From a virus, in IMG/VR virus record IMGVR_UViG_3300037493_004433, positions 1 to 24,206 of that record: 24,206 nt of DNA. One strand, given 5' to 3'. Every line of letters starts with the position of its first letter. Position 1 is the first letter of the stretch. The notes beneath the pieces were generated by a model that saw only the letters and a program-made list of their open reading frames with translations, did not search any database and was not told where the DNA came from. Shown here one piece after another: positions 2,934-7,336 of the stretch. Position numbers and translations under genes: made by a program.

Positions 2934-3102
2934 TATTCTGCTCCTCTAAAAGCTTATTAAACTCGCGTTCAATAAGGTCCATAGCGGCTTGTCCGTTGGA
3001 AATATCATAGTACTCGGCTATTTCTTTGAGCATTGCGTAAGACTTTGATCGAATAATCAAAGTAGCCCATGCAGTGTCTCTTTGTGATGGCGATTTTGCC
3101 AT
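2917..3102 (-). CDS. ribbon-helix-helix-like small DNA-binding protein (putative)
   Basis: A 61-residue product. After a short polar N-terminus comes a strand (ATLIIRSKSY) followed by two helices (MLKEIAEYYDIS, then NGQAAMDLIEREFNKLLEE). That order and size fit the Arc/MetJ-type ribbon-helix-helix fold, whose dimers bind operators through the strand. It is the first gene after the promoter at 3130-3159, with a strong Shine-Dalgarno sequence (AAAGGAG) that lies in a leader hairpin. A repressor of early genes is plausible. The assignment is by pattern and not certain; a plain small helical protein is the alternative. Confidence 0.5.
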   Translation of the reverse strand: MAKSPSQRDTAWATLIIRSKSYAMLKEIAEYYDISNGQAAMDLIEREFNKLLEEQNNGRRN

Positions 3103-3111
3103 ATAAGTTCT

Positions 3112-3127
3112 CCTTTCTATTGAAAAG
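3112..3127 (-). promoter_or_regulatory. 5' leader hairpin pairing with the Shine-Dalgarno sequence
   Basis: In the leftward transcript, CUUUUC (3122-3127) can pair with GAAAGG (3112-3117) around an AAUA loop. The stem is five Watson-Crick pairs and one G-U, and the 3' arm is part of the ribosome site of the gene at 3102. The same stem with a different loop is at 10939-10957. It may limit translation or protect the mRNA 5' end. Confidence 0.5.
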
Positions 3128-3129
3128 AC

Positions 3130-3159
3130 ACTGTATCATAAGCTTTTATATTAATGCAA
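3130..3159 (-). promoter_or_regulatory. leftward sigma-70-type promoter of the early block
   Basis: On the minus strand, TTGCAT (-35, 3154-3159) and TACAGT (-10, 3130-3135) are 18 bases apart in the 65-base gap between the polymerase stop and the gene at 3102. The promoter at 10960-10988 uses the same TTGCAT and nearly the same -10, followed by the same GTCTTTTC start region, which makes both more credible. Confidence 0.55.
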
Positions 3160-3167
3160 GTACTTTT

Positions 3168-5834
3168 TTATTGGGCCTCACCCCATGAATTACCAATTTC
3201 GACATCCACTTTACTTGGGACCTCTAATTCAACAGCGGTACGCATGATTTCTGCGGCTTGTAGGGCCTCGTCACGATTCTTAACTGACACGGCAACCTCA
3301 TCATGCACCTGTAAAAGAAGACGGAAGCCTGCTTTATGTAGTGCAACCATGGCCGCTTTAGTCTGGTCAGCTGCAGAGCCTTGTATTAAACGGTTCAAAC
3401 CTTTGTACGTACCCGCACGCTTGATCCTTGGTCCGTATTCCGAGACGGCTTGTTCGTAAGGAAGTGCCTTGTTCACGCCCCATGCTATCGGCTCCCATAA
3501 TGGGAAGCGACATTTACGCCCTAGAAGGGTGCGAATAGCGCCGTTAGAAGAGGGTTTTTCAATACGACGCATGACCGCGTCGACTGTACCTTTTAAAAAG
3601 GGTACCTTTTGATGAAACGCTGCAATTAACTCACCAGCTTCGTCCACAGGAAGGTCCAATTGTCCTGCTAATTTGTTCTTGCCCATGCCGTACATCATTC
3701 CCAAAGAGCAGTTAGACACTAAAACTCCTGATACAGTGAAACGATTTCGGGGTCCGGCATTTAAGATGTCGTATACTTTTTCGAGTTTCTTCGATTCAGA
3801 TTGTTCTCTCGATACGTTGCCAAGCGAATATTGCCCCGTTGGTATCCCATGTCGTTGTTGATTCGGTCGATGGTTTTCCCCACCCAACTGCTCTCCGGGG
3901 CAATTTCCAACAAGTAGTCCACCAATTCTTTTACCGAAGAGAATTCGCAGGTAATGCCCCTGCCACCATAGTTCTTCCACCCCGCGTTTTTTTGGTTTGT
4001 GCAGCGTTGAAAAACCTCCGTTGCCCTTCTTGCCAACCGTTTCAACCCCTCCGAATCCACCAATAAATGGCCCTTCTCCGCATGTTGCTTGCGCATAGTG
4101 CATGGTCGGCACATGGTTGACTTGCCACTTTTGAGGTTGTCCAAGAGCTTCCAGTCCTCGTTCCCACAAGCGCACTGCACTTTCGCATACTGATGCTTGC
4201 CACGACGCTGTATTTCGCGGCTCACCACGGTCCACGTACCGAACTGCTTGTTCAGTATTTCCAGTGAAAACAAGTTCATCCAGTCTTGATGCTGCGACCC
4301 CGAAAGAAATTTTCCCTGATTCGACTGTCCAGACGTCATGGTCCGGTGTTGCCGTGAGATTGCCATACGTAATCACCTCTTTCTCGCCCATAAATGCCAC
4401 GCCATCGTGACTTACCCATTCTACCCCATCCCATACCATATCGTCCAGTGTTATTTCTTCAATCGCCACAAGTCCATGATCAGTTAAAACAAGCTGGCCT
4501 TCTGCAATACAAGTCTTTGCTTCTTTACGTGAAATACCTGCAGCGGTGGCCACGATTTGGTAGAAATCTGTATCTGGATCAGCACGGTAGGCTTGCACCA
4601 CATTGTCCACACCAGGCAGGTCCAGAAGGCTGGCATAATGAATCAAGATCCGTGGCTCTTGAGAAGAGAAGTCGTTCGCGGCCCATAGCTCGCCTTCCTC
4701 CGGAAGGAATAAGGAACGTACTAAGGGGCCAATGACCTCATGACGAGCGGGAACTTGTTGAAGGTTAGGTTGTGACATAGACAGCCTGCCTGTGACTGTT
4801 CCACCGTCGTCAGAGCGTAGTTGATTAACATGTGGATGTATGCGTCCATCGGCCGCAGAAAAGTCCAGGTAGGGCTGTAGGAACGTTCCGTGGGTCTTGT
4901 TTAGCTCGCGTGCTTCTACAATCATCTTAGCAATAGGATGTGCATTACTATCCAAGAAAGATTTAGTAAAACTGGGTGCGCCGGTTTCGGTCCGAGGGTA
5001 TTTGATATGAAGCTTATCAAATGCATTAGCTATACTGGTCGCGGCCCAGATGTCGACGTGATTGCCTACTTCTTTCTTAATACTCATAAGGAACTGTTGT
5101 TCTTGGCGTTTCATATCTTTAATAAGCTTCTCGGCGTTCTCTCGATCAAAGCGAACACCTTTAAACGTAAGGTCAATAAGGATGGGTAGCATCTCTGTCT
5201 CAAGACCAAAGATGGATTCCACTTCTTCCCTGCGTAATAGTGTCTGAAGGTGATGCCAAAGCTTTAAGGTCAATGCCGCATCTTGCTCCGCGTAATCACC
5301 TACGTACATGGCAGGCAACTTCCATAGCTCTTTCTTAGGATGTACACCGAAGTCTGCAGCTGCGTCCTTAAGTCCTTGTTCGGATTTAATTTCTTTTAGC
5401 ATGTCAAAACCTAGGCTATTCAGTGAAAAAGAAAAACGGTTCTCGTCCACAATTGCCGCGGCGAGCATAGTATCAATGATGCGTCCGTTGACTTCAAAAC
5501 CTGTTGCTTTTAGCCAGCCTGTATCGTATGCCGCGTTGTGCATAACCTTGTCGCAAGGTAAGGCTAAGGTCTTCTTGACCCAGCGCTCTACAATGCCTTT
5601 ATCTAGATTGCCTCCCCCTTGATGTGCTACGGGGAAATAACCCTTCCATCCATCCACGGCAAACGCGTAGCCGACGATAAAGCCATCTTTACGAGGCCAG
5701 CCTGGTCCGAACTTCTCCATGTTGGGGTCGCATGTCTCCAAGTCGATTGCGATTTCAGTCGCTTGAGACAGGTCCGGAAAGCTATTTGGAGGAAGCCATT
5801 CAGATGAAGTGGGGAATAATGATCTAGGTTTCAC
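3168..5834 (-). CDS. family A DNA polymerase with 3'-5' exonuclease domain, interrupted by an intein
   Basis: Replicative phage DNA polymerase of 888 residues, 621 after removal of the intein. Exonuclease motifs: D31-x-E33 (IDLETC), N100...D104 (HNAAYD) and Y181...D185 (YAEQD). Polymerase motif A is NDFSSQEPR with D388; motif B is R436KEAKT441 continuing after the intein as C709SLGMMYG; motif C is H844DE846. The residue matching E. coli Pol I Phe762 is L711. The intein (442-708) cuts the O-helix between the positions matching Pol I 759 and 760, so the enzyme should be inactive until splicing. The GTG start overlaps the helicase TGA (GTGA), so translation is probably coupled; AAAGG is 9 bases upstream. 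Confidence 0.95.
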   Translation of the reverse strand: MKPRSLFPTSSEWLPPNSFPDLSQATEIAIDLETCDPNMEKFGPGWPRKDGFIVGYAFAVDGWKGYFPVAHQGGGNLDKGIVERWVKKTLALPCDKVMHNAAYDTGWLKATGFEVNGRIIDTMLAAAIVDENRFSFSLNSLGFDMLKEIKSEQGLKDAAADFGVHPKKELWKLPAMYVGDYAEQDAALTLKLWHHLQTLLRREEVESIFGLETEMLPILIDLTFKGVRFDRENAEKLIKDMKRQEQQFLMSIKKEVGNHVDIWAATSIANAFDKLHIKYPRTETGAPSFTKSFLDSNAHPIAKMIVEARELNKTHGTFLQPYLDFSAADGRIHPHVNQLRSDDGGTVTGRLSMSQPNLQQVPARHEVIGPLVRSLFLPEEGELWAANDFSSQEPRILIHYASLLDLPGVDNVVQAYRADPDTDFYQIVATAAGISRKEAKTCIAEGQLVLTDHGLVAIEEITLDDMVWDGVEWVSHDGVAFMGEKEVITYGNLTATPDHDVWTVESGKISFGVAASRLDELVFTGNTEQAVRYVDRGEPRNTASWQASVCESAVRLWERGLEALGQPQKWQVNHVPTMHYAQATCGEGPFIGGFGGVETVGKKGNGGFSTLHKPKKRGVEELWWQGHYLRILFGKRIGGLLVGNCPGEQLGGENHRPNQQRHGIPTGQYSLGNVSREQSESKKLEKVYDILNAGPRNRFTVSGVLVSNCSLGMMYGMGKNKLAGQLDLPVDEAGELIAAFHQKVPFLKGTVDAVMRRIEKPSSNGAIRTLLGRKCRFPLWEPIAWGVNKALPYEQAVSEYGPRIKRAGTYKGLNRLIQGSAADQTKAAMVALHKAGFRLLLQVHDEVAVSVKNRDEALQAAEIMRTAVELEVPSKVDVEIGNSWGEAQ
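3761..4366 (-). CDS. HNH homing endonuclease gene nested out of frame inside the intein
   Basis: A complete 201-codon gene in the +1 frame relative to the polymerase. The N-terminal region has LNKQFGTWTVVSRE (about 37-50) and a zinc-ribbon-like pair (C65AC67 and C86RPC89). The C-terminal part is a phage HNH domain: NYGGRGITC (132-140), TIDRINNDMGYQRGN (165-179) and the terminal RLATYRENNLNRRN. Its frame is closed by a TGA three codons before the ATG, and AGAGGTGA lies 6 bases before the ATG, so independent translation is expected. The ATG is formed from the Y490-G491 codons after intein block B; the TAA is formed from the L691-N692 codons in block F. It probably cuts the intein-free polymerase gene to drive homing (inference). 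Confidence 0.9.
   Translation of the reverse strand: MAISRQHRTMTSGQSNQGKFLSGSQHQDWMNLFSLEILNKQFGTWTVVSREIQRRGKHQYAKVQCACGNEDWKLLDNLKSGKSTMCRPCTMRKQHAEKGHLLVDSEGLKRLARRATEVFQRCTNQKNAGWKNYGGRGITCEFSSVKELVDYLLEIAPESSWVGKTIDRINNDMGYQRGNIRLATYRENNLNRRNSKKYTTS
4373..4380 (-). promoter_or_regulatory. internal ribosome binding site for the nested HNH gene
   Basis: AGAGGTGA on the minus strand is a near-complete match to the consensus Shine-Dalgarno sequence, with an ideal 6-base spacer to the ATG at 4366. It lies within intein codons, and its last TGA is an in-frame stop of the HNH frame. It fixes the HNH start and argues against a frameshift product. Confidence 0.75.
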
Positions 5835-7336
5835 AGTCTAAAGCCTTTACGTTCGTTTTTAGGTAGGACAATATGCAGAGCTTGACGGGCACGTGTAATT
5901 CCCACGTATAGTAAGCGATTTACATCGTCAGCATTTTTCTCATACTCGTTTGCAAATTTAGAGGATAGGTCCGTGAGCAATAAGACATTGTCTGCCTCCC
6001 CTCCTTTTGCTCCGTGAATCGTGGACAGTTTAATGTTAACCTTGCCCATAAGCTTCGTGCCACGCCGTAAAAGCGCCACGATATAGTCACGTTTCTCTTC
6101 CCCTATCTTCGTCAAGGCTTCATGCCATATTGCATTGGTATCAAGGCCATGGTGTTTAATAAGATAATCCATTGTAAACATGCCTTCTGGGTCAAGATCC
6201 CTTAGCATTTTGTGTCCCCGTTTGATATAATTGGAATCGAGATGCTTATATACCTGCTTGACCACAGGGAAAGGGACTTCTTTACCCCGACGAAGTGTTT
6301 CCCACCCCATCACCGCAGTCATCACGGCTTCATTAATGCTCCGATGTCCTTGGCGCTCGAACATCAAACCTTGTGACTTAATCCAGTTATGCATATCATT
6401 TAATAAATAGTTGGTAGACGCAAGAATTAACCATTCCCCTTGTGATATGTCTACATGTTCAAAGTCATTGTAAAACTTTACCTCACCTTCATATTCACGG
6501 GGATTCCATGTCTTAGGCTGGCGTACACGAATACGATTGACCACAACATTAGCTAAGGCGTGTACTTTAGCTGGGACACGATAGGATTGATCCAGTACGG
6601 TGATGTCCCCTTCAAACCCTAGAAAGCTATTGACATCCGCTCCCGCCCAGTTATACACAGCTTGGTCATCATCCCCTGCCAAGAAAGACCGCTTGGCCCG
6701 TGAGGCAAGCTCCGCGACCAAGCGCCATTGTAGGCGGGACAAGTCTTGCGCCTCATCCACAATGAGCACTTCTAAGCTAGGTAGACGATGTGCTTCTTCT
6801 ACTATACGTTCTAGCAGGTCAGTAAAGTCTAGTAAAGAATTAGCCTCCTTGTATTGTCGGTAGGCACGTTCTACGTATTCAAAGTGATACCATTCGATAT
6901 CCATTTGGCTACGGTTATAGTGAGTGCGAAGGTCGACGCCACGGATACGAGCGATGTTAATCTCATTGAGTATGGGATTGTCTACCCTCACCATGAAGTC
7001 TTCCTCGCCATTTTCAATACCTAATTCAATACCAGCTTCTTTAGCGAACTCTCTAAAGTGCTCAGGCTTCATCATATCTTTGATACCAATACCTAAGCAT
7101 CGGTAAGCCAGACTATGAAGTGTTCTGAACCATGGAAAATCTATCTCAGGATTTAGCTGAGGGAATTTCTCTACTGCGCGTTCTTTTGCTTCAGTAGCCG
7201 CTTTGCGTGTAAATGCAAAGTAGCCCATCTCTGCAGGATGAATGCCGCTATCTAATTCCTGCTGAACTACGTTCAATAGAAAGGTAGTTTTGCCTGATCC
7301 TGGTCACGGAGGGCCAAAAACTTTACGAATAGTCAT
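5831..7336 (-). CDS. UvrD/Rep-type SF1 helicase with an in-frame TGA in the Walker A motif
   Basis: From a TTG at 7276 the frame gives 481 residues (numbering used here) with SF1A motifs: Ia FTRKAA (22-27), Ib TLHSLA (52-57), II DEAQD (174-178), III GDDDQAVYNWAGAD (201-214), IV SYR, V STIHGAKGGEADNV and VI YVGITRARQAL (457-467). Motif I is missing. It lies upstream in the same frame: an ATG at 7336 with a strong ribosome site (AAGGAGG) starts MTIRKVFGPP, then TGA at 7304-7306, then PGSGKTTFLL. Removing six bases (TCACGG on the plus strand) would restore a canonical GPPGSGKT. So the gene is either broken, read through, or carries a sequence error. The stop overlaps the polymerase GTG. It would unwind DNA for replication if intact. 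Confidence 0.85.

Follow-up and report, generated by a model that had tools for sequence, protein, structure and literature searches.

An HNH endonuclease gene encoded out of frame within the intein of a viral family-A DNA polymerase

The endonuclease of large inteins is usually inserted between blocks B and F (PMC6801210). In canonical large inteins such as PI-SceI and PI-PfuI, it is encoded in frame and fused to the rest of the intein. In 2009, Dassa et al. reportedly described "Fractured genes," split inteins whose two halves have a homing endonuclease gene between them. Group I introns with HNH open reading frames (ORFs) carry their endonuclease out of the host frame, with its own start. 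The nearest published case that we found is the ShiLan domain, where an insertion in an actinobacteriophage DNA methylase encodes an HNH out of frame (Arsenault, Gosselin, and Gogarten 2025, PMC11855218). Here, we analyze a stretch of viral DNA of 24,206 nucleotides (nt) (the window; positions 1 to 24,206 of IMG/VR record IMGVR_UViG_3300037493_004433) in which a family-A DNA polymerase gene contains a complete intein and, wholly within the intein and in its +1 frame, a gene for an HNH endonuclease.

Like the canonical large inteins, the window has its endonuclease coding region between blocks B and F, but here it forms a gene of its own that overlaps the intein, and the intein frame encodes a disordered spacer at that place. 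As in the fractured genes, a separate endonuclease gene is tied to an intein; there, however, the intein halves lie on separate ORFs, whereas here the intein and the polymerase form one ORF that overlaps the nuclease gene. Unlike in the group I introns, no intron was found, the host frame is open, and removal would take place at the protein level. The ShiLan domain resembles the window in having its HNH in the other frame, an open host frame, and a patchy, probably homing-derived distribution, but it has no Hint domain and no splicing, resides in a methylase, and begins with GTG without a detectable ribosome-binding site, whereas a full Hint intein flanks the HNH in the window and a start with a Shine-Dalgarno (SD) sequence is encoded in Hint-N (PMC11855218). 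A literature search returned no description of an out-of-frame HNH inside an intein; a preprint from the ShiLan group on non-canonical intein architecture (10.1101/2025.01.02.630785) may cover it. An earlier, sequence-only reading of the window knew of no established description of the arrangement; out-of-frame HNH insertions outside inteins have been published.

We consider it probable, at roughly 85%, that one stretch of DNA encodes both a cis-splicing intein and a free HNH homing endonuclease produced by internal initiation. The polymerase frame would specify a cis-splicing Hint intein with a disordered spacer of about 160 residues between its halves, and the polymerase precursor would splice out the 267-amino-acid (aa) intein, spacer included. 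Because the spacer leaves with the excised intein, it need only avoid stops. In the +1 frame, an ATG and an SD sequence within the Hint-N codons would direct internal initiation on the polymerase mRNA and yield a free-standing zinc-site HNH nuclease. This nuclease probably cuts intein-free polymerase alleles, and repair of a cut allele would copy in the intein together with the nuclease gene. We computed how the locus is built and conserved, the selection acting on the HNH frame, the openness of the polymerase frame, and the constraint on the start codon, and we infer splicing, internal initiation, HNH cleavage, and homing. For the splicing half, the completeness of the Hint fold and the maintained open frame make this the most likely mechanism; for the nuclease and homing half, selection and the start-site constraint do so.

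Anatomy of the intein and the overlapping HNH gene

The polymerase ORF (positions 3168 to 5834 on the minus strand, as are all features below) runs without stops from end to end and encodes an 888-aa precursor of exteins and intein, with matches to the Pfam family-A polymerase domain (DNA_pol_A, E = 8e-53) and to a 3'-5' exonuclease domain (exo1). Empty-site relatives, in which ...RKQAKT is followed by IGLGLMYG at the intein position, delimit the N-extein (4512 to 5834; last residues ...SRKEAKT) from the C-extein (3168 to 3710; first residues CSLGMMYGMGK). One intein-free relative, DSL-LC04, is 71% identical to the window polymerase. The intein itself spans 267 residues, Cys1 to Asn267 (3711 to 4511), the first base of the Cys codon being 4511 and the last base of the terminal Asn codon 3711. 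It interrupts a conserved site of the host protein in frame and has blocks A, B, F, and G at its ends, which align with those of relatives; the complete intein claimed by the sequence-only reading is thereby borne out. In the window's polymerase clade, we also observed two intein sites about five residues apart (KT then C and KTIGLGL then C), with very similar inteins at the two (loci L009 and L129 versus L010, L121, L122, L126, and L128).

Structure prediction with AlphaFold2 separated the intein into three parts. Predicted local distance difference test (pLDDT) scores were above 95 at residues 1 to 80 and 241 to 267. The Hint-N half (residues 1 to 82; 4266 to 4511; pLDDT, 95 to 98) holds block A and block B (TATPDHDVWT; 4326 to 4355), and the Hint-C half (residues 241 to 267; 3711 to 3791; pLDDT, 95 to 96) holds blocks F and G and ends in VSGVLVSN, followed by C. 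Between them lies the stop-free frame-0 spacer (residues 83 to 240; 3792 to 4265), which is predicted to be disordered, with scores mostly between about 42 and 60. Foldseek matched the intein model to solved inteins with a probability of 1.00, and Pfam returned no Hint match in the window.

The HNH gene (3761 to 4366) encodes 201 aa in the +1 frame, as the sequence-only reading had stated, and its product matches the PHROG family of HNH endonucleases phrog_374 (E = 2.7e-26). Its ATG (4364 to 4366) is made from a Tyr TAT codon and the following G, and its TAA stop (3761 to 3763) is made from the block-F Leu-Asn codons TTA AAT, both of which can be read directly in the sequence as first proposed. 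The protein had no match to Pfam HNH profiles, nor to viral contigs when used as a lone query; there, alignments were needed as the query. The AlphaFold2 model has a mean pLDDT of 89 (93 to 98 in the core), with low values at residues 1 to 30, whose DNA overlaps Hint-N. Foldseek found no significant match for the model in the PDB, and VIA-align gave PacI, an HNH restriction enzyme, as the best structural neighbor (Z = 6.2 across residues 101 to 196). Four cysteines, C65, C67, C86, and C89 (codons within 4100 to 4174), are invariant in 61 relatives and probably form a zinc site. The HNH-domain core (residues about 131 to 193; 3788 to 3976) contains the further invariant columns Y133, R136, G137, I138, D167, R168, Y175, N179, and R181 in the same relatives. 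The phrog_374 endonucleases and PacI share an HNH core and paired cysteines with the window protein.

Conservation of the arrangement and selection on its two frames

We searched named phages, IMG/VR viral contigs, and GTDB genomes with HNH alignments and with a Hint-N alignment, classed the loci by profile, and collapsed identical Hint-N DNA, which left 167 distinct sequences. The arrangement is widespread among them, in polymerase genes of phages and prophages, answering the proposal to look for it in homologues: 119 are uninterrupted inteins with the HNH in +1 and 20 have it in −1. The remainder comprises 13 HNH-less mini-inteins of about 100 to 160 aa, 7 loci in which the HNH separates a Hint-N ORF from a Hint-C ORF, 7 truncated loci, and 1 frameshifted contig. 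No in-frame HNH was found in any of the 167 sequences, and the HNH is out of frame in all 139 distinct HNH-bearing inteins classed as uninterrupted, that is, with Hint-N and Hint-C sharing one ORF. As the Hint-N searches were unbiased toward out-of-frame HNH genes, in-frame cases with a similar Hint-N should have appeared. Two apparent in-frame calls were rejected: in L272 the HNH gene is actually downstream of the intein, and L276 is a contig with a one-base frameshift.

Among phages, tblastn with either frame led to the same polymerase genes, with the HNH offset from the polymerase frame. Reading the frames directly confirmed +1 in Gardnerella phage vB_Gva_AB1 and a Streptococcus phage and −1 in Vibrio phage 97.13, EBPR siphovirus 2, Pseudomonas phage MR14, and Salmonella phage LDDK01; in Escherichia coli phage fPoEco01, the offset is −1 by coordinates and the HNH is unannotated. 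At another polymerase site, an HNH frame that is absent from the annotation likewise overlaps the inteins of loci L203, L204, and L205 (Caulobacter GB2A, Shewanella SFCi1, and APSE phages). Loci L053 and L060 have a uracil-DNA glycosylase domain fused N-terminally to the intein-bearing family-A polymerase.

Purifying selection on the HNH frame is strong. Between near relatives, the frame's ratio of nonsynonymous to synonymous rates (omega; rough estimates by NG86) was 0.06 to 0.23, compared with about 0.8 to 4.6 in the polymerase frame of the overlap; in pairs that include the window, the corresponding values were 0.09 to 0.23 and 1.0 to 1.6, with about 1.2 for the spacer. The per-frame comparison suggested in the sequence-only reading thus came out in favor of a selected HNH. 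About half of all differences fell at HNH third positions, and identity to the window's clade was 60 to 74% for the HNH protein and 32 to 46% for the spacer. These contrasts between the two frames indicate that the polymerase frame is kept open without its sequence being conserved.

We measured this openness by permuting synonymous codons with the HNH protein fixed. For the window, the mean was 7.3 polymerase-frame stops, with a probability of about 1e-4 of none; under extein codon usage, the mean was 14.8 stops (P = 5e-5 of none). The third frame has 7 stops. Across 33 dereplicated loci, the probability of a stop-free polymerase frame was 0.0005 to 0.19 each. Freestanding HNH relatives of the phrog_374 type (n = 35) have stops in both alternative frames, unlike the window, and split-intein loci have 9 to 28 in the corresponding frame, which shows that openness is not inherent in the HNH sequence.

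A real HNH gene could nonetheless have ceased to be a homing enzyme for this site, having been domesticated or acting only elsewhere. In keeping with this idea, inteins of the window's clade are no more alike than their exteins, which gives no sign of recent transfer. On the other hand, the strong purifying selection, the HNH-less mini-inteins, and a patchy presence fit a homing cycle, and we regard loss of homing as unlikely. The intein was not detected in 78 of the 80 closest polymerases of the window's lineage, among them loci (L279, L280, L282, and L284) whose N-extein is about 92% identical to the window's; such patchiness is expected of a mobile or often-lost element.

Probable translation of the HNH frame

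Throughout the +1 class, the HNH ATG sits 145 nt past the first base of the intein Cys codon. Of 59 dereplicated loci, 49 use TAT for the Tyr codon that forms it, whereas the codon usage of the exteins predicts 24.4 (P = 8.6e-13). The window has an SD-like sequence, AAAGAGGTGA, in Lys-Glu-Val codons (4373 to 4382), and AAGGAGGT is common at the same position and codons in relatives. Family-wide, SD strength exceeds the synonymous expectation (P = 2.7e-6 by a Wilcoxon test). In the −1 class, the start is usually at +77 or +92, with weaker ribosome-site evidence. We tried mini-inteins as a control for the start and SD, but they proved unsuitable, since most retain both, probably by descent.

Programmed ribosomal frameshifting would instead fuse the N-terminal part of the polymerase and Hint-N to the HNH, leaving no free nuclease. 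Shifts of +1 and −1 occur in phages, and Hint-N and the HNH overlap by about 40 nt. The +1 frame, however, leaves almost no room to shift: in the window, a TGA (4373 to 4375) lies two codons upstream of the ATG, a stop occurs within two codons in 64 of the 95 loci with this ATG, and in none of the 95 is the HNH frame open beyond the intein start, as it is always closed inside the intein. This closure disfavors a fusion, and the conservation of the start codon and SD at synonymous sites also speaks against it, less strongly so in the −1 class; frameshifting therefore seems improbable. The division of splicing domain and nuclease between two overlapping genes, as the sequence-only reading had it, is supported, and the same conserved start and SD and the upstream closure of the +1 frame are signs of independent initiation.

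Very improbable is a self-splicing intron inside the intein that contains the HNH gene and is removed from the RNA. Related HNH genes elsewhere lie in introns, and those of the phrog_374 type also occur freestanding. Yet an Rfam search over positions 3000 to 5900 at E values up to 1 gave no match, and thus no group I intron, and an intron would not require the polymerase frame to be stop free, which it is. Lastly, two compensating indels from sequencing or assembly that moved an ordinary in-frame HNH out of frame, an error that could explain one lone case (contig L276 does have a one-base frameshift), are refuted by the identical offset in >100 independent sequences from named phages, IMG/VR, and GTDB and by the lack of any in-frame homologue, the finding that would have pointed to such errors.

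Several points count against a spliced intein that encodes a free homing endonuclease. Ten of the 59 relatives have TAC at the start-forming Tyr and need another start. The SD of the window is good but not the ideal one that had been noted at 4373 to 4380, AAAGAGGTGA being no stronger than synonymous codon choice gives (P = 0.44). Conservation of the HNH core points to a D-R/Y/N-x-R variant, and the catalytic His of classic HNH enzymes was not found. In the window and its clade, Ser precedes the terminal Asn (LVSN then C; 3711 to 3716), where most relatives outside the clade have His; a penultimate His is common in inteins but not strictly required, and the Ser-Asn end therefore does not exclude intein membership. 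The omega values come from a method without a model of overlapping frames, though the contrast is large. Finally, the "uninterrupted" set was picked by the very feature of a shared ORF; this selection is addressed, though not eliminated, by the P values of the single loci and by the controls from split and freestanding loci.

Origins, split inteins, and implications

In a tree of 129 HNH proteins (root not fixed; bootstrap values rough), the −1 class forms one clade (98/85), and most +1 members, including the window, form a second. Another +1 lineage, whose inteins occupy a different polymerase site (Caulobacter GB2A, Shewanella SFCi1, and others), branches from within the freestanding HNH proteins. 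These placements suggest several origins. In Streptococcus phage Javan422 (L202), the intein is shortened and its +1 HNH has decayed to a remnant, an intermediate toward a mini-intein.

Split-intein cases sit in three places of the HNH tree. Split polymerase genes (L055, L074, L083, L089, L091, L100, L102, L104, L105, and L107) have an ORF for the N-extein and Hint-N that ends in a stop, then the HNH gene, and then Hint-C and the C-extein on a separate ORF, which in several of them has a start and an SD of its own. L089, L100, L104, and L107 look just like the fractured genes. In L100 and L104/L107, Hint-C has its own start, with a GGAG- or GGAA-type site (e.g., aaaaaaggagaagaaATG) just before it, as would be expected of a natural split intein. 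With Hint-C starting on its own in these loci, contiguous inteins could plausibly have become split by way of the nested, overprinted state. More broadly, and at about even odds, freestanding HNH genes may have repeatedly colonized phage family-A polymerase inteins in frames other than the host's, with two +1 lineages and one −1 lineage as the minimum. The overprinted intein would then be a stable state in which one protein splices and another serves homing. Natural split inteins that have an endonuclease gene between their halves would derive from it, after the unused spacer frame has picked up stops and Hint-C has acquired its own start.

Textbook inteins have an endonuclease fused in frame or none. 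The arrangement described here would be a third state, two overlapping genes of which one splices and the other cuts, and it occurs unannotated in cultivable phages, including Salmonella and E. coli phages. If this reading is true, many entries listed as inteins with no recognizable endonuclease would hide one. It would also provide a concrete route by which contiguous inteins could become split, the origin of split inteins being debated, and allow a clean test of overlapping-gene origin where one frame need only avoid stops.
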